From assembly GCA_020847735.1 (NCBI GenBank), contig JADLBL010000012.1, positions 62,001-126,000 on the forward strand: a DNA stretch of 64,000 nucleotides, read 5' to 3'. The DNA is from Candidatus Eisenbacteria bacterium (GTDB lineage Bacteria > Eisenbacteria > RBG-16-71-46). Both the position numbers and the translations under genes were made by a program. The stretch's first letter is position 1; each line of letters opens with the position of its first letter. The notes under the pieces were generated by a model. The model did no database searches, was not told where the DNA came from, and saw only the letters and a program-made list of their open reading frames with translations. Positions 460-11,649 of the stretch are shown here, piece by piece.

Positions 460-2583
460 CTAGACGTTCCAGTTCATCGCTTCCCAGTCCGCACCCGGCA
501 GCACGACGCGCAGCGGCTGGCCCGGAGGAAGCGAGTCGAGCCGCTCGCCGCCCCTGCGAAGATGGATGAACAGTTCGAGTGATTGCCCAGCCGAAACTCC
601 GAGCACGGCGAACGGCAGGGCCAGCTCGAGGATCTCCTCGAGCGCGGCCTCACCCGCGGGCGGCGCAGCCTCCGGCCCGCCCGTGCCGAAACGCCACCGG
701 CCCACGCGCAGGATGCCGACGTCGAGTTGAAGCGGTGCGGGCGAGAGCACCTCGATCTCCGCCGAAACCTCGCCCCCGGGTGCGCCTCCGCCGGAGAAGT
801 CCACGCGCAGGTAGAGCCGCTCGGAGTCGAAGCCGAAATGCAGGCGGGTGGCGAGCGGGGCGCTGACACGATGCATCGAGCCGCCGCCCGCCAGATCCCA
901 CGAACCGGCGCCGTGCCACTCGTAGAAGCGCGTGAGGTGGCCGTCGATCACCGGCCGCACGAGCCCGGTCGGCTCGAGGCGCCCGGCCGCGACCGGCAGG
1001 CGGTTCGCGATCGGGCGCAGCAGGACGTTCGGAACTGGCAGTCCGGCGTGCTCATGCGCCGCCTGAAGATGAGCACGGAAGAGGCTGTCGAACAACGCCT
1101 TGTCCGCCGTGTAATTGTCTTCGCCAAACCACCAGAACCAGTCCGACCCCTCGGCCGCGCCAAGCGACTCCCAGGCGACCGGGTGCGAATCCCGGGTGCG
1201 CCCCTCTCTCACCAGCGCGGCGCGAGAGAGCGCCAGCAGTTCCCAGGCCCGGTTCTTCTCCGGGTGCCCGGCCCAGATATGGAAGTCGGCGTCGATCCAC
1301 GAGCCCGAGTGCAGGAACGCGAGCCTTCCGGGCTCGGGTCCGTCCGCGAGCACCTCCGACGGCGTGCGCGTGCGGATGTCGTCCGCCTCCGCGAGCGCCG
1401 CGTACAGCGCCTCGAGGAACGGCCGGCCATCCTCCGCGTAGTGCTCCCAGCAGTTCTCGCCGTCGAGGATGACGCTGACGACGGGACGGCCGTCCCGTCC
1501 GGCCGCCCGGTGGGCCTCGCCGATCCCCCGAAGGCGCCTCAGGAAGTCTTCGGTCGCCTCCGCGGCATCCCACGTGCTGTAAACGAAGCCGATACGGTCC
1601 GAGAGCTCGTGATCGCGGAAGAAGAGCGCCAGCTCCCCCGCCGGCGTCGGCAGGATCCACGGCCGGTAGAGCGACTCCCTTCCCGGGACGGCGTCCTTCA
1701 CCGATCGCCAGAGCACGAGTTCGTCGGTGGCCGCCCAGCGAACGCCGGCGGCCACGAGGATCTCGGCCGCTTCCGGGCTGACCCCGCCTTCCGAGGGCCA
1801 CATGCCGGTGGGCCGTGCGCCGAACGAGCGCGCCGCGAGATCGAGCCCTCGCTCGACCTGCCAGCGTGCGTCCTCGGGCGCCGCGAACTCCCGGGTCGGC
1901 AGCGGCAGGTCCGGGCGCGAGCGCTTCGCCGTCCGCACGTCCACGAGCAGGGGCAGGATCGGGTGGAAGGCCGGCGAACACGTCAACTCGACCTGGCCCC
2001 GCCCGGCCAGTCGCCGGTAGGCCGGCAGCACGCGGGCGAGCACCTCGGCATGAAGCGCGAGCAGGGCGTCCCGCTCGGCGGTGCCCGCGCGGCCTTCGCG
2101 CAGAGCCGCGTCCGCGGCCGCCGCCGCCGGCTCACCCAGCAGCGTCGGGTCGAGCCAGGCGAGCAGGAAATGCACGCACAGCCGCAGCAGCTCGGCCTCG
2201 CTCGCCACCGCGGGAGCGCGCAGGCGGCGGCACAGCTCCGCGTACTGCGGCCAGCGCACGTGAGCCCAGCGCGGGGCCAGTCGGGTGCGCGCCTGCAGTT
2301 CGGCGCGTGCCGCGGCGTCGAGCGCTCCCGCGGGGGCCGCGAGCAGCTCGAACAGGGCGTCCGCTCCTCCCGAGAGCGCATGTTCGATCTGTTCCAGAAG
2401 CGATGGCGCGAAGTTGAACGTCGCCTTGAGCTTCGGGTGGCGCTCGAGATGGAGCGCCATGTCGAGATAGTCCTTCGTCGCGTGCAGGCGCACCCACGGA
2501 AGCATCGCCCGGCCGTCGCGCGGCCGGCGGTAGTCCGGCTGGTGGTGGTGCCAGACGAAGACGAGGTCGACACCCTGCGACAT
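460..2583 (-). CDS. Glycoside hydrolase family 57 protein (alpha-glucan-active)
   Basis: A 707-residue GH57-type enzyme. Family conserved regions are visible: HHHQPDY at residues 12-18, WPSEGG with the likely nucleophile Glu265, and ILDGENCWEHY with the likely acid/base Asp374. GH57 members are retaining alpha-amylases, 4-alpha-glucanotransferases or branching enzymes with a distorted beta/alpha barrel. The last ~150 residues are beta-rich (for example RLHFGFDSERLYLRVDF) and look like a C-terminal sandwich or carbohydrate-binding domain. No signal peptide is seen, so it is probably cytoplasmic. It may act on glycogen made with the two GlgC proteins encoded further along. It starts 32 nt after the stop of the TPR gene. 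Exact substrate and linkage are not determinable here. Confidence 0.88.
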   Translation of the reverse strand: MSQGVDLVFVWHHHQPDYRRPRDGRAMLPWVRLHATKDYLDMALHLERHPKLKATFNFAPSLLEQIEHALSGGADALFELLAAPAGALDAAARAELQARTRLAPRWAHVRWPQYAELCRRLRAPAVASEAELLRLCVHFLLAWLDPTLLGEPAAAAADAALREGRAGTAERDALLALHAEVLARVLPAYRRLAGRGQVELTCSPAFHPILPLLVDVRTAKRSRPDLPLPTREFAAPEDARWQVERGLDLAARSFGARPTGMWPSEGGVSPEAAEILVAAGVRWAATDELVLWRSVKDAVPGRESLYRPWILPTPAGELALFFRDHELSDRIGFVYSTWDAAEATEDFLRRLRGIGEAHRAAGRDGRPVVSVILDGENCWEHYAEDGRPFLEALYAALAEADDIRTRTPSEVLADGPEPGRLAFLHSGSWIDADFHIWAGHPEKNRAWELLALSRAALVREGRTRDSHPVAWESLGAAEGSDWFWWFGEDNYTADKALFDSLFRAHLQAAHEHAGLPVPNVLLRPIANRLPVAAGRLEPTGLVRPVIDGHLTRFYEWHGAGSWDLAGGGSMHRVSAPLATRLHFGFDSERLYLRVDFSGGGAPGGEVSAEIEVLSPAPLQLDVGILRVGRWRFGTGGPEAAPPAGEAALEEILELALPFAVLGVSAGQSLELFIHLRRGGERLDSLPPGQPLRVVLPGADWEAMNWNV

Positions 2584-2615
2584 GGGTCGTCCCGGCGCGG
2601 CCTCGAGGCCGCGGA

Positions 2616-3287
2616 TCAGTTCGAGGAGAGGGCGCGCAGTTCGGCGAGCTTCACGCGCGCGCGGCTCGCGTAGCTCGTTTCGCCGAACTCGTCGGTCAGG
2701 CGCTGCAGCCGCTGGATCGCCCCGGCCTTGTTGCCGAGCGCCTCCTGGCAGCGGGCCGCTCCGGCGAGAAACTCGCCGCTCGACTCGCGGTCGAACGCGC
2801 CCACGAGACCGTCGTAGAGCTTGGCCGCCTCGGCGTACTGCCGGTCACTCTCGTACGCGTACGCGAGGCTGCGGCGCACGACATTGCCCATCAGGCCCGT
2901 GCCCTTCTTGCCGAGGTAGGCCCTGTACTGGGTGATCGCGTCCTTCCAGTTGCCGCGCCAGTAGGCGTCGTCACCGGAGATGCGCAGCGCGTCGATCCCG
3001 CTCGGGGTGCCGCCGTACTGCCGCGCGACTTCGTCGGCGATGGTCTTGGAGCGGTCGTAGTCGCCCTGCCAGAACAGCGAGTTTGCCTGCGCCAGCTTCT
3101 CGGAAGCGGCGACTTCCTGCGTCTCGTTGGAGCGGATCGTGAAGTACGCGACCGCGGCCACCGCGGCCACCGCGACGAGCGCGCCCAGGATGATGCGGCT
3201 GTAGCGTTCCCACAGCGAGGTCAGCCGATCCAGCATCTCCGCGCCGGGATCCTGCAGCGCGGTCCCCTTCCGAGACTCCAGCGACAA
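2616..3287 (-). CDS. Membrane-anchored tetratricopeptide protein (YfgM-like), TTG start
   Basis: A 223-residue protein with one N-terminal transmembrane helix (IILGALVAVAAVAAVAYFTI) followed by helical TPR-like repeats (for example SLFWQGDYDRSKTIADEVARQ, DDAYWRGNWKDAITQYRAYL). This is the architecture of YfgM-type ancillary proteins that face the periplasm and help protein folding or export. I chose TTG at 3287 because a perfect GGAGG lies 6 nt upstream (3294-3298) and no ATG offers as good a site. A longer reading frame continues upstream but is low quality. A good promoter lies at 3357-3386, so the TSS is about 60 nt upstream. Function is inferred from topology only. Confidence 0.75.
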   Translation of the reverse strand: MSLESRKGTALQDPGAEMLDRLTSLWERYSRIILGALVAVAAVAAVAYFTIRSNETQEVAASEKLAQANSLFWQGDYDRSKTIADEVARQYGGTPSGIDALRISGDDAYWRGNWKDAITQYRAYLGKKGTGLMGNVVRRSLAYAYESDRQYAEAAKLYDGLVGAFDRESSGEFLAGAARCQEALGNKAGAIQRLQRLTDEFGETSYASRARVKLAELRALSSN

Positions 3288-3356
3288 GTGAAACCTCCGT
3301 GAACGCGGCGTACGACGACGGTTCGAGCGGCCACTCACAGGCCGAAAGCGGCGGAA

Positions 3357-3386
3357 ACCTTAACGGCCGGCCGGTCCGCCGGTCAA
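3357..3386 (-). promoter_or_regulatory. Promoter for the TPR gene (TTGACC-18-TAAGGT)
   Basis: Reading the minus strand: -35 TTGACC (3386-3381), 18-nt spacer, -10 TAAGGT (3362-3357). It lies in the gap upstream of the TTG-start TPR gene and shares its form with other promoters in this window. Confidence 0.6.
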
Positions 3387-3450
3387 GCCGACCCGCGCCC
3401 CGCGCGGTCGGACCGCTGCCGCCTTCGCCGCGCCCGCGGCCGTCCTGGTG

Positions 3451-4578
3451 TCAGTCGCCGGTCGCGCACAGGGCGCAGGCCACGTGCCCGCGCGCACGCA
3501 CCAGGATTTCCGCTGTTCGCTCGCACGTCGGGCAGGCGGGCAGCGCCGGACGGCCGCGGGCCACGTCCACCTTCGCCCTGACTTTTACGTGCACCGCCCC
3601 GGAACGGAGCTCCTGCTCGATCTCGGCCACCGGCCACGACCACTCCTCGAGTCCCCAGAGCCTCACCTCGGTGCGCATCTCCCATCGCTGTCGCACCTCG
3701 GCCGCGCGCCGCTCCCACTCGAGCTTGAGCGAGGTGGCGTCGCCGGTGTCCATCTCGTGGTCGTCGCCGCCGGTCCGCCGCCGCAGCCGGTCCTCCTCCT
3801 CCTCGATGCGCGCCGAGAAGAACGCCCCGAGCCGCTCGAGTTCGAGATCGCGAAGCCGCCCCACCGACACCTCCCACTCCCGCTCCCGCTCGCTCGCCAG
3901 TTCCTCGAGGGTTTCCCGGGCGCTCTGCAGCCAGCGCTCGCGCAGGCCGGGTTCGAGCTCCTCGCCCATCTGGTAGAGACCTTCGCGGGGACGGACCTCG
4001 GGCACCTGGGGCGCCTGCGCACGTTCGAGCACTTCGCCGCCGGCGCCGACCAGCACGACCCACTGCTCCTGCCAGGGCAGGCCGCCCCAGCGGGTGATGA
4101 CGGCGTGAAACGCCATCCGCCGTTCGTATCGAACCGGACCGAGGCGCGGCGGCCCCCAGGTGAGTCCGCGCACCTTGCACACCGTCGCGAGCCCGGTGGG
4201 CGGCGCGCCCGGCACCTGCGCGAGCGCCGTGCGCCGCGTGAACATCGGTTCGGCGAGCGCGGCCTCGAGGATGCGCCGGCCCGCCGTGCTGCCGGGCGCG
4301 GTGAACCAGGCGCCACGCGGCACCGTCGGGCGGACCGGATCGAACACGAGCCGCACGCGCTGCCGCCGCCAGCGCTTCTGCAGGCCGGGCGCCAGCTCCA
4401 CCTCCCAGTCGCCGCGCGGCGCCGCTTCGACCCTGCAGCCGGCCGTCTCCAACCAGCTCCCCACGAAGGCGCGCCACTCGGGCTGCTCGGCCGCCGTCTC
4501 GCCCCGAGGCACGCCGGACGCGGGCAGCGACCGGCGCGCCTCGGGCTTCGCGGCACGGGCGCCGCGCCGCGCTTTCAC
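3451..4578 (-). CDS. Unrecognised 375-aa protein with C-terminal zinc ribbon, coupled to SNF2 ATPase
   Basis: I do not recognise this family. The N-terminus is basic. The middle (roughly residues 195-300) is rich in Glu/Arg and Trp and looks helical or coiled-coil (ETLEELASEREREWEVSVGR, RIEEEEDRLRRR). The C-terminus has CPTC at 349-352 and CALC at 368-371, a probable four-Cys zinc site. There is no signal peptide or membrane helix. Its start ATG overlaps the SNF2 stop in ATGA (4575-4578), so translation of the two is probably coupled and the product is a likely partner of the ATPase. It ends the 11413-3451 run. Possible roles are adaptor, DNA/RNA binding or a substrate-recognition subunit; none can be chosen from sequence. 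Confidence 0.8.
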   Translation of the reverse strand: MKARRGARAAKPEARRSLPASGVPRGETAAEQPEWRAFVGSWLETAGCRVEAAPRGDWEVELAPGLQKRWRRQRVRLVFDPVRPTVPRGAWFTAPGSTAGRRILEAALAEPMFTRRTALAQVPGAPPTGLATVCKVRGLTWGPPRLGPVRYERRMAFHAVITRWGGLPWQEQWVVLVGAGGEVLERAQAPQVPEVRPREGLYQMGEELEPGLRERWLQSARETLEELASEREREWEVSVGRLRDLELERLGAFFSARIEEEEDRLRRRTGGDDHEMDTGDATSLKLEWERRAAEVRQRWEMRTEVRLWGLEEWSWPVAEIEQELRSGAVHVKVRAKVDVARGRPALPACPTCERTAEILVRARGHVACALCATGD

Positions 4579-6572
4579 GCGCCGCCCTCCTCATCGTTTT
4601 CCTGCGTGCCGCGGAACAGCCAGCTCTGGTTGTCGCGCTGCTGCTGGTAGAGCTTGCGGGCGGTCACCAGATGCTGCGCCAGCTCGCCGAAGCGGCGCTT
4701 GCGCGATCGCGGGTCCCGCGACTCGATCCAGCGCTTGAACACCTCGTCCTCGAACGAGCCCTGCATCTGCCAGGCGCCGAGAATCTCCTCCATCTCGCCC
4801 ACGACCAGCTCGAACATCCGGATCTTGCGCTCGAGGATCTCGAGCACGTACGCCTCGATGGTTCCGCGCGCCACGAGGTTGACCACCCGGACGGGATACT
4901 CCTGCCCCAGCCGGTGCACCCGGCCGATTCGCTGCTCGACGCGCATCGGGTTCCACGGCAGGTCGTAGTTGATGACGATGCGCGCGAACTGCAGGTTGCG
5001 GCCTTCGCCACCCGCCTCGGTGCTGACCAGCACCTGCTCGCGCTGCCGAAACGCCTCGAGCGCCTCCTCCTTCTCGCGCCAACCCATTTCGCCGTGAAAC
5101 ATGGCGTGCGTGACCCCTTCCTCTCGGAGGGCGTCCAGGATGGCGTCCTGGGTGGCGCGGAACTGCGTGAAAACGATGGCCTTCTCGCCCTTGAGCGAGG
5201 CGATGCAGCGCAACAGCGTTCGCACCTTGCTCGTGTCGTCGCGCAGCTCGGCCGCCCGGTCGGCGAACGCGCGAACCCGCTTCGGATCGAAGCCGTCCGC
5301 GTGAGCCGCAAGCTTGCGCAGCGTGCCGGCGGCCGCCGCCCACGAGGAGCCCATTTCCTTCTGCAGCACCATGAGCGTGAAGTAGTGGGGTTTGCCCGGC
5401 TGGCCATGGTCCCCGCGCACCGCGTCGGCGACGAACTCGCTGATCTGCCGGTAGAGCAGGCGCTCGGCCGCGGGCTGCTGGACCGCCAGCGACTCGACCC
5501 GGCGCGGGGCGAACGTCAGCTTCGTGTCCGCGCGCCTCGTGCGGATCATCACGCTCTGCAGCAGCCGGCGCAGGCGCGGCGTGTTGCGCGGCGTGCGCTT
5601 GTCGTGCCCCGAGAGGAAGTCGCGTCGGAACTGGGAGAAGGTGCCCACCGTCCCGGGGCGCACGAGCGTCACCAGGTTGTACAGCTCGCGCAGGTCGTTC
5701 TGCACCGGCGTCGCGGTGAGCAGCAGCAGGTAGCGCGGGTTCAGGTCGTTGATGAACTTCCAGCCGAGGGTCAGGTGGTTGCGCAGCCGATGCGCCTCGT
5801 CCACGACCACCATGTCGTAGTTGGCCCCCCGCACCCGCCGGCGATGCCGCTCGTGCCGCGCGGTCTCGAGCGACGAAATGACGAGCGGATGGCGCCCCCA
5901 CTGACCGGCCGGGCCGCGCGAGACCACGAAGTCGAGCTCGAACTTCTCCCACAGCTCCGCGCGCCACTGTTCGCAAAGCGAGGCCGGCACGAGCACGAGC
6001 ACGGTGCGAACCGCGCCGCGCAGCAGGTACTCCTTGAGCACGATGCCCGCCTCGACCGTCTTTCCGAGGCCGACCTCGTCCGCGAAGATGCCGCGGCCTC
6101 CGAAGTCGCGCAGCATTCGCAGGCAAGCGTCCACCTGGTGCGGGAAGCGCTCGACGCCGCGCAGGGAATCGAGAGACTGCAGACGGTCGGCGCCCGCCCA
6201 GCCCGCCCACTCCTCCGCCCCTGCGCGCAGGTCGAAGTGCCGCTGCGGCTCGGCCCGGTTCGTGAGCCAGCGGCGCAGCAGTTCCTCGCCCTGCGGGTGC
6301 CAGTGCCGCCGCACCGCCAGCACCGCCCCCGCGGCGACCCGGGCCGCGGCGCCGTTCCCGCTCCCGCCGTCGGTCGCGTCCCCCGCGGCCGCCGGAGCGC
6401 CGACCGGTCCGTCCACGATCACCCACTCGCGCTGCGCCGAAAGCCGGCGCAATTCGCCGCCGAAGACCACCTCGAGCACCTCCCGACCGCGATCGGTGTG
6501 CACCTCGACGATCAGGCCCTCGCCGAACAGCGGATGATGGAGCCGCAGCCCCACCTGGTATCGGCTGCTCAC
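4575..6572 (-). CDS. SNF2-family DEAD/DEAH ATPase with N-terminal Tudor-like domain (RapA-like)
   Basis: A 665-residue Swi2/Snf2 translocase. Residues ~1-50 (VGLRLHHPLFGEGLIVEV, then an F-G-G-E strand) resemble the small Tudor-like fold found at the C-terminus of UvrD/PcrA. The helicase core follows: Walker A DEVGLGKT at 165-172, DEAH at 258-261, LLLTATPVQN near 283-292, then a second RecA lobe with NYDLPWNPMRVEQRIGRVHR. The compact size resembles bacterial RapA/HepA, which recycles stalled RNA polymerase. I chose the GTG at 6572 because it forms GTGA with the stop of the upstream metallo-hydrolase and because homology starts there; a longer frame upstream lies inside that gene. The downstream zinc-ribbon gene overlaps by ATGA. 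Role in transcription recycling versus DNA remodelling is open. Confidence 0.88.
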   Translation of the reverse strand: MSSRYQVGLRLHHPLFGEGLIVEVHTDRGREVLEVVFGGELRRLSAQREWVIVDGPVGAPAAAGDATDGGSGNGAAARVAAGAVLAVRRHWHPQGEELLRRWLTNRAEPQRHFDLRAGAEEWAGWAGADRLQSLDSLRGVERFPHQVDACLRMLRDFGGRGIFADEVGLGKTVEAGIVLKEYLLRGAVRTVLVLVPASLCEQWRAELWEKFELDFVVSRGPAGQWGRHPLVISSLETARHERHRRRVRGANYDMVVVDEAHRLRNHLTLGWKFINDLNPRYLLLLTATPVQNDLRELYNLVTLVRPGTVGTFSQFRRDFLSGHDKRTPRNTPRLRRLLQSVMIRTRRADTKLTFAPRRVESLAVQQPAAERLLYRQISEFVADAVRGDHGQPGKPHYFTLMVLQKEMGSSWAAAAGTLRKLAAHADGFDPKRVRAFADRAAELRDDTSKVRTLLRCIASLKGEKAIVFTQFRATQDAILDALREEGVTHAMFHGEMGWREKEEALEAFRQREQVLVSTEAGGEGRNLQFARIVINYDLPWNPMRVEQRIGRVHRLGQEYPVRVVNLVARGTIEAYVLEILERKIRMFELVVGEMEEILGAWQMQGSFEDEVFKRWIESRDPRSRKRRFGELAQHLVTARKLYQQQRDNQSWLFRGTQENDEEGGA

Positions 6573-7978
6573 GCCCACAGGTCGAACTCCTGCCCCAGTT
6601 CGGGAATGTGCACCTCGGCCCCGATGCGTTCGCGCAGCAGCGCGGCGAGCGTCTCGGCGGGGCGCAGCTCGCCGTGCACGAGAAAGATCGTGCGCGGCGC
6701 CGGCGCGAGCTTCACGACCCACTCGAGCAGTTCGCGCTGGTCCGCGTGCGCGCTGAAGCCGTCGAGCGAGGCGATCTCGGCCCGCACACGCACCGGTTCT
6801 CCGAAGACGTTAACCGTCTCCGCCCCGTCCTTCAGCCGCCGGCCGAGCGTGCCCTCGCCCTGGTAGCCGACGAACAGCACCGTATTGCGCTCGTTACCGA
6901 GCCCGTGCTGCAGATGGTGCAGCACCCGGCCTCCTTCGGCCATGCCGGACGCCGAGATGATCACGCATGGCCCCTCACGATCGTTGAGCGCCCGGGATTC
7001 GTCCGCCGTACCCACGTACCGAAGCCTGGAGAAGCCGAAGGGCGAGCCGTCGCCGGTGGCGAAGCGGGCCGCGGTTTCGGCGTCGAAGCACTCGGGGTGC
7101 TTCACGAAGATGCGCGTGGCGTTGCGCGCCATGGGGCTGTCCACGAACATCGGCACGTCGGGCAGCCGGCCCGCCTCGATCAGGTCGTGGAGCGTCGCGA
7201 CCAGCTCCTGGGTTCGCCCGACCGCGAAGGCCGGGACGATGAGCCGCCCCCCGCGCTCGACCGTCCGTCGGACGATGTCCACCAGCCCGTCGATCGTCGC
7301 GCGATCGTCCCCGTGCAGCCGGTCACCGTAGGTGCTCTCGAGCACGAGCACCTCGGGTCCCACCGGCACCTCGGGGTCGCGCAGGATCTGCCTCCCGGGC
7401 CTGCCGAGGTCACCGCCCATCAACAGCCTGAGCGAGCGGCCGCCCGAGGTGAGTTCGAAGCTGGTGAGCGCCGAGCCGAGAATGTGGCCGGCGTCGTCGT
7501 AACGCACCCGGACGCCAGGGAACAGCTCCCAGTCCCGGTGATAGCCGTGCGTCTCGACTCGTGCCAGCACGGCGTCCACGTCCGCGGGTGAGTAGAGCGG
7601 CGTGCGCGGCGGCCGGCGGCCGGCGGCGTGCTTGTTGACGTGCTCGACATCCTTCTGCATCAGGAACGCGCTGTCGGCGAGCATCACCCGTGAAAGGTCC
7701 GCGGTCGCGGGAGTCATGTGCACGGGCCCGCGAAAACCCTGGGCGGAGAGCGTCGGCAGGTTGCCGGTGTGATCCAGGTGCGCGTGCGAGATCACGACCG
7801 CGTCCACGTCGCCGGGCGCGAAGCGGAACGTGCGGTTCACGCGCTCGGCTTCGTCGCGATGCCCCTGGTAGAGGCCGCAGTCGAAGAGCCAGGTGCGGTC
7901 GCCGAAGCGAAGCAGGTGCCGCGAGCCGGTCACGGTCCGCGCGGCGCCGTGGAACGCGATGCTCGGCCGGTCGCTCAT
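6569..7978 (-). CDS. MBL-fold/beta-CASP RNA-processing exonuclease-like protein
   Basis: A 469-residue metallo-beta-lactamase with beta-CASP insert, the family of CPSF-73, YSH1-like and bacterial RNase J-related nucleases. HAHLDHTG (His65, His67, Asp69, His70) supplies the two-zinc site. Further ligand motifs follow: VLESTYGDRLH, VPAFAVGRTQEL, ISASGMAEGGRVLHHL, and a C-terminal GFSAHADQRELLEW with FLVHGE. All the catalytic motifs I look for are present, so it is expected to be active on RNA (or single-stranded DNA). The start ATG is 3 nt beyond the stop of the barrel gene. Its stop overlaps the SNF2 GTG. Cytoplasmic. Physical coupling to an SNF2 ATPase suggests joint action on transcripts or stalled polymerase, which is inference. 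Confidence 0.92.
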   Translation of the reverse strand: MSDRPSIAFHGAARTVTGSRHLLRFGDRTWLFDCGLYQGHRDEAERVNRTFRFAPGDVDAVVISHAHLDHTGNLPTLSAQGFRGPVHMTPATADLSRVMLADSAFLMQKDVEHVNKHAAGRRPPRTPLYSPADVDAVLARVETHGYHRDWELFPGVRVRYDDAGHILGSALTSFELTSGGRSLRLLMGGDLGRPGRQILRDPEVPVGPEVLVLESTYGDRLHGDDRATIDGLVDIVRRTVERGGRLIVPAFAVGRTQELVATLHDLIEAGRLPDVPMFVDSPMARNATRIFVKHPECFDAETAARFATGDGSPFGFSRLRYVGTADESRALNDREGPCVIISASGMAEGGRVLHHLQHGLGNERNTVLFVGYQGEGTLGRRLKDGAETVNVFGEPVRVRAEIASLDGFSAHADQRELLEWVVKLAPAPRTIFLVHGELRPAETLAALLRERIGAEVHIPELGQEFDLWA

Positions 7979-7981
7979 CGG

Positions 7982-8617
7982 TCAATACGCGGCATAGAAC
8001 AGGACTCCCACCGACACCTGCAGGTCGTGATTCACCGAGGAGTCGAAGAACACGGTCTGGTAGCGGGCGGCGAAGTCCAGCGCCCAGCTGCGATAGACGA
8101 ACCGTTCGACGCCCGCGCCCACCGCCAGGAACGTGCCGTCCCCCGCGAGCGGATACTGGGTCTCGCCGTCGGACAGCCGGGCCGACACCTGCGCGAGGCC
8201 GGCGCCGAGCGAAATCCATTTCACCGACTTCGTCCGGGTGTCGAACATCTGGTAGAAGTCGAAGCCGGTCAGGTTCAGCATCAGCCGGTCGCGGGTCAGC
8301 AGCGAATCCGTCGCCGAACGCGGGCCGAGAAACGCACCCTCGGGAAAGCCGAGCCGGCGCGAGTCGAGCTGGTGCATGTCGAAGCTCAGGCCGATCGCGC
8401 GCTCGTAGCGCATTCGATAGCGCAGCCGCACCCCGAGCCCGAATCCCGAGCCGAACTCCTGGCCGAGCGACCCCGCGTCCGCGAGCGTGCCGAAGTCGCC
8501 ATGGAGTCCGACGCCCACCTGCCCGGCACGCGGCACGACGATACTGGCCGCGCCCGCCGCGCCGGCGGACAGGAGCCCGATCGCCGCGACGATCCCAACG
8601 AGAAGACCCTTCGTCAT
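7982..8617 (-). CDS. Outer-membrane beta-barrel protein, small
   Basis: A 211-residue exported protein. The N-terminus MTKGLLVGIVAAIGLLSAGAA is a signal peptide with cleavage near AAGAA. The rest alternates hydrophobic and polar residues in strands (FGLGVRLRYRMRYERAIGLSF, LDFAARYQTVFFD), as in OmpA/OmpW-type barrels. It ends in LFYAAY, an aromatic C-terminus expected for a barrel. I chose ATG at 8617 because GGAGG sits 5 nt upstream; a GTG four codons earlier would bury that site. It lies 34 nt after xerD and 3 nt before the MBL gene, so it probably shares their transcript by position only. Function unknown. Confidence 0.75.
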   Translation of the reverse strand: MTKGLLVGIVAAIGLLSAGAAGAASIVVPRAGQVGVGLHGDFGTLADAGSLGQEFGSGFGLGVRLRYRMRYERAIGLSFDMHQLDSRRLGFPEGAFLGPRSATDSLLTRDRLMLNLTGFDFYQMFDTRTKSVKWISLGAGLAQVSARLSDGETQYPLAGDGTFLAVGAGVERFVYRSWALDFAARYQTVFFDSSVNHDLQVSVGVLFYAAY

Positions 8618-8651
8618 CGATTCCTCCACGACCCCGGTCGTGCGCCCCGCG

Positions 8652-9593
8652 TCAGGGGCGGGGATGAAATTGGCGATGCACCTCGCGCAGGTAGCCGCGG
8701 TCGAGGTGCGTGTAGATGGCGGTGGTGGTGACCGACGCGTGCCCGAGAAGCTCCTGCACGATGCGCAGGTCCGCTCCTCCCTCCAGCAGGTGCGTCGCGA
8801 AGGAATGCCGGAGCGCGTGCGGATGAACGCGGGTCGCGATCCCCGCCCGCCGCGCGTGACCGCGCAGGATTCGCCACCAGCCCATCCGGCTGAGCGGGCC
8901 CCCGCGCGCGTTGCAGAACACCCGGTCGTGCCGGGCCCGCGCGGCGAGCCGCGGACGTCCGTGCTCGAGCCAGGCCGCCAGCGCCCGGGCGGCGGCCCGT
9001 CCGAACGGCACCAGCCGCTGCTTGTCGCCCTTGCCGGTCACCGTGAGGGAGCGCTCGTGCAGGTCCACGGTCGCCCGCTCGAGGCCCACCAGCTCGGACA
9101 CGCGCAGGCCGCACGCGTAGGCGAGTTCGAGCATCGCCCGGTCGCGCAGCGCGAGCGTCGAATCGCCCCCCGGCTGCGCCAGCAGCCGTTCGATGTCGCC
9201 GAGCGCGAGTGCGTGCGGCAGGCGGCGCTCGCGGCGCGGCGCGGGCAGCACGGCGACCGGGTCGTCCGTGTGCCCGCCGACCCGGGCGAGGAACGAGTGA
9301 AAGCCACGCAGCGTCGATCTCCGGCGCGCGACGGTCGCCGCCGACAGTCCGCGGCGCTGCAGCGAGGCGAAGTAGCCGTCCACGAACGTCACGTTGGCCT
9401 CGCCCCAGCCCGCGAGGTGGTGCGAGCAAGCGAACGTCCGGTAGTCCTCGAGATCCCGACGATAGGCGTCCACGGTGCGCGGGCTCAATCGGCGGCCCTT
9501 TCGCACTTCGTCGAGCCACGCCTCGAGCGCGGGCACGAGCCCGGGCGTCCCCGGCGCGTTCGGGCGACGCGGCGCGTGGGAGGCCGTGTTCAC
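8652..9593 (-). CDS. xerD: Tyrosine recombinase XerD
   Basis: A 313-residue site-specific recombinase that, with XerC, resolves chromosome dimers at dif during division. The N-terminal SAM-like core-binding region covers about residues 1-110. The catalytic domain shows Arg in [10 protein letters not shown], Lys in [27 protein letters not shown] and the nucleophile Tyr in IYTHLDRGYL. The tail LREVHRQFHPR matches the XerD pattern (LRQLHQQHHPRA) better than XerC. The GTG at 9593 overlaps the uvrC stop in GTGA, indicating coupling. A second Xer protein, judged XerC, is at 20122-21063, so the window carries the pair. No dif-like site was located. Confidence 0.9.
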   Translation of the reverse strand: MNTASHAPRRPNAPGTPGLVPALEAWLDEVRKGRRLSPRTVDAYRRDLEDYRTFACSHHLAGWGEANVTFVDGYFASLQRRGLSAATVARRRSTLRGFHSFLARVGGHTDDPVAVLPAPRRERRLPHALALGDIERLLAQPGGDSTLALRDRAMLELAYACGLRVSELVGLERATVDLHERSLTVTGKGDKQRLVPFGRAAARALAAWLEHGRPRLAARARHDRVFCNARGGPLSRMGWWRILRGHARRAGIATRVHPHALRHSFATHLLEGGADLRIVQELLGHASVTTTAIYTHLDRGYLREVHRQFHPRP

Positions 9594-11413
9594 GCCGCGC
9601 CCTCCCGCCCCGCGAGGTGCTCGGCCACCCGCCGGGCGAGCGAGAGCGGCACGTGCGCGCGCACCGCGATGTCGCCGACGGCGGCGCCCCGGAGCGCGGC
9701 GACGGAACCGAATGCCTTGAGCAGCGCGGCCCGGCGGGCCGGCCCGACGCCGGGCACCTGGTCGAGCACGCTCGCGATCCGGGCGCGCGAGCGCAGCGCG
9801 CGGTGGTACTCGAGTCCGAAACGGTGCGCCTCGTCGCGCAGCCGCTGCAGCGAGCGCAGCGAGGGCGAGCGGCGCGACAGGCGCAGGTCGGGCGCGCCCT
9901 CGCGCACCACGAGCTCCTCGCGCTTGGCGAGGCCGATGGCGGCCACCGGACGCGTGGCCACGCGGTCGAGGGCGGCGCGCGCGGCGGAAAGCTGCCCCGC
10001 GCCTCCGTCGATCACGACCAGGTCGGGACGCGGAAGCTCGTCGGACTCGACGCGCGTCCAGTAGCGCTCGACCGCTTCGCCGATCATGGCGAAGTCGTCC
10101 GGGCCCGGCCGGCGCAGGCGCATCCGCCGGTACAGCTTCTTGAGCGGGCGGCCGTCCTCGGAAGCCACCACCGCCGCGACGGCCTGATCGGGCCCGAAGT
10201 TCGAGATGTCGAAGCACACGAGCCGATGCGGCGGAGCCGGCAGCCCGAGGTCGCGTTGCAGGGCCGAAACCGCCGCCGAAAGTCGGACCCTCCGGCCGCT
10301 GCTTCGGGCCGCGAGCTGCTCGAGCGCCGACAGCGCGTTGCGCTCGGCGATCTCCACCAGGCGCCGCGCCCGCCCGCGTGAGGGCGCGAGCAGGCTCACC
10401 GTGCGCCCCGCCCGCGTCGACAGCGCTTCGGCCAGCGCGGCATGGTTCGCGGGCAGCGTCCCGACGAACACGCGGCGCGGAAGGTCCGTGCGCGCGAGCG
10501 CGTGCTGCGTGACCCAGGCCTCGAGGAGCGCACCGTCCTCGGCGCCCGCGACGCGCTCGAGCATCCGCGTCTCCTTGCCGATGACGCGGCCGCCGCGCAC
10601 CAGCAGGGTCGCGATCGCCGCGCGCTCGCCGATGCGAGCCAGCCCGAGCACGTCGGTGTCTCGCGGATCCGAGGTCACCATCGTCTGCGGCACCTGGGCC
10701 CGTTCCAGCAGTCGCAGCTGGTCGCGGCGCTGGGCGGCGATCTCGTAGCGGCGCCCGGCGGACGCTTCGTTCATTTCCCGGCGAAGCTGGCCGAGCAATT
10801 CCTCGTTGCGCCCGGAAAGGAGCATCAGCAGGCCGTCCACGAGGCGGCGGTAGTCCTCGGGCCGGACGCGTGCCCGGGAGTAGCAGGGACCGGCGCAGCG
10901 CTTGATGTGGTAGTACAGGCACGGGCGGTCCTGGCGCCGGTAGTCCTCGAAGTTCCGGCAGGTGCGCAGCGGAAAAACCCGGCGCAGGTCGCGCAGCGTC
11001 CGGCGCAGGTTCTTGACGTCCGTGAACGGGCCCAGGTACCGCGCCCCGTCGTCGCGCACGCGGCGGGTCACGGACAGGCGCGGGAACTCCTCCTGAACCG
11101 AGAGTTTGACGAACGGGAAGCTCTTGTCGTCCTTGAGCAGCACGTTAAAGTGGGGCCTGTGCTGGCGGATGAGGGTGGACTCGAGCAGCAGCGCCTCGGC
11201 TTCGGACGCGGTCACGATCGTGTCCACGTCGGCCGCCCGGCGGATCATCTCCTCCATGCGCGGGCGTTCGGGATCGGGCGCGAGGTAGCTGCGGACGCGG
11301 GCGGCCAGACTGCGCGCCTTGCCGACGTAGAGCACCTCGCCCAGGGCGTCCTTGAAGAGGTAGACCCCCGGAACAGCGGGCAGAATCGCGATTTTCTCAG
11401 CCAGCGCGCCCAC
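9590..11413 (-). CDS. uvrC: Excinuclease ABC subunit C
   Basis: UvrC, 607 residues, makes both incisions in nucleotide-excision repair after UvrAB loads on damage. Near the N-terminus is the GIY-YIG nuclease (AVPGVYLFKDALGEVLYVGKA). A UVR segment lies around residues 200-240. The RNase H-like C-terminal nuclease (VVIDGGAGQLSAARA) is followed by a helix-hairpin-helix (DQVPGVGPARRAALLKAFGS). I set the start at GTG 11413 because GGAGG is 5 nt upstream and homology begins there; 66 more residues upstream are open but uncharacteristic. Length matches the usual ~600. It is the first gene of the uvrC-xerD-barrel-MBL-SNF2 run and diverges from rpsT. Confidence 0.95.
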   Translation of the reverse strand: MGALAEKIAILPAVPGVYLFKDALGEVLYVGKARSLAARVRSYLAPDPERPRMEEMIRRAADVDTIVTASEAEALLLESTLIRQHRPHFNVLLKDDKSFPFVKLSVQEEFPRLSVTRRVRDDGARYLGPFTDVKNLRRTLRDLRRVFPLRTCRNFEDYRRQDRPCLYYHIKRCAGPCYSRARVRPEDYRRLVDGLLMLLSGRNEELLGQLRREMNEASAGRRYEIAAQRRDQLRLLERAQVPQTMVTSDPRDTDVLGLARIGERAAIATLLVRGGRVIGKETRMLERVAGAEDGALLEAWVTQHALARTDLPRRVFVGTLPANHAALAEALSTRAGRTVSLLAPSRGRARRLVEIAERNALSALEQLAARSSGRRVRLSAAVSALQRDLGLPAPPHRLVCFDISNFGPDQAVAAVVASEDGRPLKKLYRRMRLRRPGPDDFAMIGEAVERYWTRVESDELPRPDLVVIDGGAGQLSAARAALDRVATRPVAAIGLAKREELVVREGAPDLRLSRRSPSLRSLQRLRDEAHRFGLEYHRALRSRARIASVLDQVPGVGPARRAALLKAFGSVAALRGAAVGDIAVRAHVPLSLARRVAEHLAGREGAA

Positions 11414-11577
11414 GGACCCCTCCGGAGACACGAGTGGGGGTACTCGAGGCAGGCAGGTTACACGCCCCGGGAACGCCGGCACAACGGGGATTCCCGGGTT
11501 CGCCGGCCGGCCCCGGGCGCGCAGGCGCGCGTCCTTCCGCGCGCACCTTCGCGGAGCATGCGCTCGCGCCGCAGCGC

Positions 11578-11606
11578 TTGACACACGCCGCGCGCACCCG
11601 TACTTT
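11578..11606 (+). promoter_or_regulatory. rpsT promoter (TTGACA-17-TACTTT)
   Basis: Perfect -35 TTGACA at 11578-11583, 17-nt spacer, -10 TACTTT at 11601-11606. This puts a TSS near 11613 and a leader of about 35 nt before rpsT. It is one of the clearest sigma-70-like promoters in the window. Confidence 0.75.
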
Positions 11607-11649
11607 CTCACGGCTTTTTCGCAGCCTGCCTACCTTTCAGGAGGAGTCC

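Follow-up and report, generated by a model that had tools for sequence, protein, structure and literature searches.

A probable split RapA-type enzyme encoded by a coupled gene pair in Candidatus Eisenbacteria

Background

The RNA polymerase recycling ATPase RapA (HepA) of E. coli is a single chain of 968 amino acids, with tandem Tudor domains in its N-terminal part, an SNF2 motor, and a C-terminal part that has no zinc ribbon. RapA sits at the RNA exit channel of the polymerase, with its N-terminal domain on the beta' zinc-binding domain and the lobes of its motor on the beta flap tip (PMC8666675; PMC8501970). The C-terminal domain is built on an antiparallel sheet of five strands, the fourth and fifth of which are separated by two long inserted helices, and has been called unique to the RapA/BrxHII helicases, and the BrxHII helicases of BREX-related (DUF499) systems likewise combine a Tudor domain, an SNF2 motor, a degenerate nuclease-like domain and a beta sheet with a long helical insert (PMC12839542). 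The Pfam model for the C-terminal region, RapA_C (PF12137), spans residues 605-965 of E. coli RapA.

In Bacillus, a short SNF2 protein of the RapA/HepA type, YqhH, is encoded in what we take to be a gene pair, yqhH-yqhG, with the same order as the two genes that are the main subject of this report. The B. subtilis protein has been named HepA/RapA and is listed as RNA polymerase interacting (PMC7385302), loss of yqhH renders B. thuringiensis UV-sensitive (PMC10054049), and insertions in yqhG and mfd came up in the same transposon screen (PMC3487849). The PcrA/UvrD-type Tudor fold of PcrA was shown to bind RNA polymerase (PMC5397179), and the archaeal beta-CASP ribonuclease FttA (aCPSF1) takes RNA directly from the polymerase exit channel (PMC11616081).

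Here we describe a computational analysis of three genes in a 64,000-nucleotide stretch of the metagenome-assembled genome of a Candidatus Eisenbacteria bacterium (contig JADLBL010000012.1, positions 62,001 to 126,000; hereafter the window). We propose that two of these genes, which are separate and translationally coupled, each encode one half of a RapA-type machine, a reading to which we assign a probability of about 0.68; binding and recycling of the polymerase by such a machine are what we infer from its likeness to RapA.

Organization of the locus

Three intact open reading frames run along the minus strand of the window from position 7978 down to 3451. They encode a beta-CASP metallo-beta-lactamase ribonuclease of the TTHA0252 type (469 aa, 6569-7978), a short SNF2 ATPase (665 aa when counted from the overlapping GTG, 4575-6572) and a protein of 375 aa (3451-4578). 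The stop codon of the ribonuclease gene and the start codon of the SNF2 gene share a GTGA overlap at 6569-6572, and a second GTGA at 4575-4578 joins the SNF2 gene to the gene for the 375-aa protein. The original prediction had recognized these genes and the first overlap correctly, but had given the second as ATGA; the motifs that it called intact (HAHLDH in the ribonuclease, Walker A and DEAH in the SNF2 protein, and CxxC...CxxC in the 375-aa protein) are all present in the sequence.

The overlap between the SNF2 and 375-aa genes is kept in distant relatives. Since 32 of 63 loci drawn from several bacterial phyla and archaea have the downstream start codon placed precisely within a four-base overlap, and many of the remaining loci have overlaps of 8-17 bases, this junction is more than a matter of chance. 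In the family to which the window belongs (f1), the genes follow a constant order of OMP barrel, beta-CASP, SNF2, 375-aa protein, TPR protein and glycosidase, and the succession of ribonuclease, SNF2 and 375-aa genes is kept in 17 of its 20 genomes; the corresponding block of other families in the class consists of the OMP, SNF2, 375-aa homologue, TPR and glycosidase genes, without a beta-CASP gene. The pair itself belongs to an old syntenic block, together with uvrC, a XerC/D-type recombinase, the OMP barrel, the TPR protein and a glycosidase-like gene; this block extends over positions 460-11611 of the window and recurs in several families of the class (loci L042, L043 and L044 among them).

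The motor protein

The SNF2 protein matches the Pfam models SNF2-rel_dom (3e-35) and Helicase_C (5e-26), and in a search of PDB sequences its best five matches are all RapA (1e-38). Its ATPase core is closest to that of RapA and has intact motifs: the Walker A sequence DEVGLGKT at 6057-6080, of which GLGKT is invariant in our SNF2 alignment (A1), and the DEAH box at 5790-5801, which is invariant in the same alignment (both on the minus strand). The tandem N-terminal Tudor domains of E. coli RapA (PF18339 and PF18337) are both absent from the SNF2 protein of the window, which has instead a single Tudor domain of the PcrA/UvrD type (PF21196; 6456-6554, minus strand), a predicted contact to RNA polymerase. 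The match to PF21196 is weak in this copy (E=0.05), and it lies above the cut-off in the relatives L042 (1.2e-6), L044 (1e-6) and L184 (1.2e-7).

The Tudor region varies among more distant motors. Those of haloarchaea and cyanobacteria are shorter and are without it in alignment A1, and a partnered SNF2 gene of Pseudomonadota (L191, 7516-9858) specifies, instead of a Tudor domain, an N-terminus with weak likeness to TPR (ANAPC3, 4e-5).

The 375-aa protein and its kinship with RapA

None of the Pfam, NCBIfam or PADLOC models matches the 375-aa protein, RapA_C gives no match to it even at E=10, and searches of PDB sequences with the protein or its alignment return chance matches only. Its predicted structure, in an AlphaFold2 model of medium confidence (pLDDT 71), begins with an alpha/beta domain (aa 33-110; 4249-4482), which aligns in hhalign to RapA from about residue 711. 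It continues with an antiparallel beta domain (aa 145-338; 3565-4146) that is broken by a long and mostly well predicted helical hairpin (aa 210-298; 3685-3951), and ends with a zinc ribbon, C349xxC352...C368xxC371 (CPTC...CALC; 3466-3534), all of these features being on the minus strand. This predicted layout matches that published for the C-terminal domain of the RapA/BrxHII helicases (PMC12839542).

The original prediction had proposed a search for homologues together with a structural comparison by Foldseek. Against 350,542 PDB chains, the model of the 375-aa protein finds RapA as its best match (8spg, E=1.9e-3, probability 0.97, over ~310 columns) and again as its second (8t0l, E=8e-3, probability 0.91), the next match having a probability of 0.3. 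For the model of a homologue from locus L060, which is 22% identical to the 375-aa protein (pLDDT 62, also of medium confidence), the first three matches are RapA as well (6bog, E=3.7e-4, and 8spg, 8e-4, each with probability 1.00, followed by 4s20). As both AlphaFold2 models were built from one set of 15 sequences, differently ordered in each run, they are of supportive value without being fully independent. TM-scores against RapA are low (0.18-0.22), probably as a result of domain orientation.

Comparison of profiles points in the same direction. The merged profile of the 375-aa family matches that of the RapA C-terminal region over residues ~711-924 with a score of 46.4 (E=2.5e-5 as a single comparison), as against at most 23.1 for 60 column-shuffled controls and 17.8 for a reversed one; when more sequences were included, the match stood at E 1e-4. 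Only the merged family reaches RapA, none of the profiles of single subgroups giving a significant match, and identity to RapA is low, at 10%. The first ~100 residues of RapA_C, which form the start of the RapA Spacer (605-710), are without a counterpart in the family. In our judgement, based on these profiles and predicted folds, the kinship of the 375-aa family with the C-terminal part of RapA appears to be real but distant, and a C-terminal region of RapA fold, as found by Foldseek and by profile-profile comparison, would thus be present in the two-gene system.

A natural fusion occurs in the same genome from which the window is derived (G000). A protein of 1,781 aa (L178, 5053-10398; G000:C20:209053-214398) consists of an SNF2 domain, a region that matches the 375-aa family at 8.6e-10 and a cysteine-rich repeat tail, so that both halves are found in one chain and in the order that they have in RapA. 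The tail contains 49 Cys and about 28 motifs of the type C-x2-[ST]G ... KRVLP.

What had been described as an unknown zinc-ribbon protein is better characterized by its likeness to the C-terminal part of RapA. The first two cysteines of the ribbon are invariant in alignment A3, and the ribbon as a whole is an add-on to the family, missing from some relatives such as L044 and the cyanobacterial partners. Taken as a pair, the proteins of the window resemble E. coli RapA in the SNF2 motor, in a Tudor-type domain at the N-terminus and in the order of folds within the C-terminal part; they differ from it in being specified by two genes, with the region related to RapA_C encoded separately from the motor, and in having one PcrA-type Tudor domain, an added zinc ribbon and no first part of the Spacer. 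The RapA-type, polymerase-directed role foreseen in the original prediction gains from both halves, since the 375-aa protein resembles the C-terminal half of RapA and the SNF2 protein carries a Tudor domain of a polymerase-binding fold; the role itself is still one that we infer.

Distribution of the pair

Profile searches of 47 Eisenbacteria genomes detected the 375-aa family in all 47 and the SNF2 protein of the pair in 46. The two genes adjoin each other in 44 of these genomes, and the three exceptions look like contig breaks, because the matches are positioned at contig edges. The SNF2 and 375-aa genes are obligate neighbours, and the core unit of the locus is this pair. Conservation of the neighbourhood, for which the original prediction had proposed a test on all three genes, thus holds for these two, but not for the ribonuclease gene, which is adjacent in only 25 of the 47 genomes.

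Outside of the Eisenbacteria, the pair was found in 7 of 398 sampled Pseudomonadota genomes, six of which have an exact ATGA overlap. Searches of plasmids detected SNF2 proteins with 37-42% identity in haloarchaea, cyanobacteria and the alphaproteobacterial Rhodovastum, and most of their genes have a gene for a hypothetical protein of 340-390 aa next downstream. The archaeal genome L061 keeps the order of the two genes with one small gene between them, the pair being rare in its phylum (1 of 148 genomes). In profile-profile comparisons with the Eisenbacteria 375-aa family, the partners of haloarchaea (E=1.5e-10 and 1.5e-21), of cyanobacteria and Rhodovastum (3e-13) and of L061 (6e-11) match over nearly their full length; by this measure of their sequences, all of these SNF2 partners form one superfamily with the Eisenbacteria proteins. 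Canonical RapA_C (PF12137) was detected in none of 30 pair-bearing genomes that were checked for it, which is consistent with replacement of RapA by the pair. In viral contigs and phages, SNF2 homologues are present, and the 375-aa partner was found in none of 57 viral loci.

The YqhG protein of Bacillus could be another version of the detached half, the sequence evidence for this being a weak and collinear match, confined to the N-terminus, of the L060 partner to the YqhG model PF11079 (13.6 bits against a threshold of 25, E=0.033). Among 21 partners only two match this model at all, with 0.033 as the best E-value; it is found in none of the 47 Eisenbacteria genomes, and nothing beyond E=0.033 was seen in the selected genomes.

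Two further observations concern variation among the relatives. In some genomes of the window's family the pair is present in an additional, divergent copy (L180, 6602-9986, G005:C98; also L179, L181 and L182). In G005, the second SNF2 copy groups with the cyanobacterial and Pseudomonadota copies and apart from the core Eisenbacteria copy, which suggests that it was gained horizontally. The haloarchaeal partners can have very long cysteine-rich tails made of tandem CxxC...CxxH units, bringing the proteins to a total of 676 to ~1,250 aa (L067, after 7620; L077, 5959-7989; L078, 5698-8985); the Haloferax gene is absent from the listed annotation.

The ribonuclease, the adaptor and the defence readings

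The protein encoded upstream has the metallo-beta-lactamase, beta-CASP and RMMBL parts of a TTHA0252-type ribonuclease (Pfam Beta-Casp 5e-42, RMMBL 2e-20), with intact metal-binding motifs that include an HAHLDH (7769-7786, minus strand) aligned with that of TTHA0252. TTHA0252 is its closest PDB match (2e-85), and it resembles FttA (9bct, 7e-57) and CPSF73 more distantly. It shares its beta-CASP core with TTHA0252 and FttA/aCPSF1. One alternative is a three-part machine at the exit channel, in which the split RapA would remove RNA polymerase while the ribonuclease cut the RNA being made, as a bacterial analogue of archaeal FttA. In the window's family (f1) the gene order is strict, with GTGA coupling, and the ribonuclease gene is linked in 17 of 20 genomes, as it is in 8 of 9 of a second family (f5); these features, the handling of RNA from the exit channel by the homologous FttA (PMC11616081) and the binding of RapA at the same channel (PMC8666675) would all fit such an arrangement. 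However, the ribonuclease has none of the KH domains of FttA, being closest to the general RNase TTHA0252, and it is a neighbour to the core pair rather than a part of it. A homologue is found by profile search in 41 of the 47 genomes and is undetected in 6, with the gene adjoining SNF2 in 25 and residing elsewhere in 16; genome G013 keeps the pair with no detectable beta-CASP homologue. Because the SNF2 tree groups f1 with the unlinked f2, and f5 with other unlinked families, the linkage is patchy, with either two gains or several losses behind it. The single complex of all three proteins originally envisaged is consequently not borne out as an obligate one, adjacency being limited to 25 of 47 genomes and two families that are not sisters. 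The ribonuclease is an ordinary RNA-decay enzyme that belongs to the operon in some lineages only, and any link between it and the pair at the exit channel would be at most lineage-specific. We regard the three-part machine as unlikely, and it is slightly more doubtful still that, in the one-operon lineages, the polymerase is stripped off by the motor as the ribonuclease cleaves the RNA that emerges, in an FttA-like form of factor-dependent termination and recycling.

The two remaining alternatives concern the nature of the pair. If the 375-aa protein were an unrelated zinc-ribbon adaptor, obligately partnered with SNF2, its likeness to RapA would be confined to a shared coiled-coil hairpin; the missing direct match to RapA_C, the 10% identity and the modest quality of the models could be cited for this, but the same domain order extends over ~310 columns, RapA provides the only convincing PDB matches, the alignment covers the alpha/beta domain besides the hairpin, the shuffled controls fail and the fused form has its 375-like region exactly at the C-terminal position of RapA. 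We consider such an adaptor to be very improbable. Hardly any more credit, and if anything a little less, is due to an anti-phage module of the DISARM or BREX kind in which SNF2 would translocate DNA and the 375-aa protein would act as a sensor. The SNF2 protein does score 243 bits against the DISARM DrmD model and 247 against BrxH models, some pairs are plasmid-borne, and haloarchaeal pairs adjoin genes for DUF499, DUF1156 and DUF262 proteins, which are parts of BREX-related systems (PMC12839542). These scores are nevertheless far under the cut-offs (243.5 against 610 bits for DrmD), and at the window locus methyltransferase, PglZ and DUF499 genes are all absent. Moreover, essentially all Eisenbacteria genomes have the pair, which according to the tree is inherited vertically and is syntenic with the uvrC, xerC/D, TPR and glycosidase genes. 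As a core gene that is passed on vertically and has no mobile context, the window copy is unlikely to serve in defence; the role in defence that had been held possible for it loses ground, and the accompanying remark that methyltransferase and mobile context are lacking was accurate.

Assignment of the SNF2 protein to DISARM was rejected on its DrmD score of 243.5 bits and the absence of methyltransferase and DrmABC genes at the locus. A BREX assignment was rejected as well, the BrxC/DUF499 ATPase and adenine methyltransferase being absent around the window copy and found near haloarchaeal pairs only; BrxHII, which is a single chain encoded in a defence locus with a methyltransferase and an ATPase, differs in this respect from the window locus, which has neither. 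On haloarchaeal plasmids (L064, L070, L072, L073 and L075) the pair lies beside DUF499 ATPase, DUF1156 methyltransferase or DUF262 genes, and from this handful of plasmids the haloarchaeal pair may be the split helicase of a BREX-related system. When the partner was compared directly, by profile, with the C-termini of single BrxHII or 987-aa plasmid SNF2 proteins, no signal was obtained, single sequences being too weak for this purpose.

Proposed mechanism and implications

According to the split RapA-type enzyme that we favor, the SNF2 half would supply the ATPase motor and dock on RNA polymerase through its N-terminal Tudor domain, and the 375-aa half, as the counterpart of the RapA C-terminus, would contribute the alpha/beta domain and the beta sheet with its long helical hairpin. 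The zinc ribbon might add a further contact to nucleic acid or to the polymerase. The two proteins would form a physical complex that binds the polymerase near the RNA exit channel, hydrolyses ATP and frees polymerase that has stalled or that remains after termination, and the upstream ribonuclease would act as a separate RNA-decay enzyme that has joined the operon in some lineages.

This reading offers an identity for a protein family that has no Pfam or NCBIfam model, that occurs in both bacteria and archaea and that one phylum has universally. Polymerase recycling of the RapA type may accordingly extend far beyond the single-chain RapA of proteobacteria, with the C-terminal half as a module in its own right, open to exchange between housekeeping and defence contexts. 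In this system, in which the C-terminal domain is naturally detached from the motor, the role of this poorly understood part of RapA would become directly testable.
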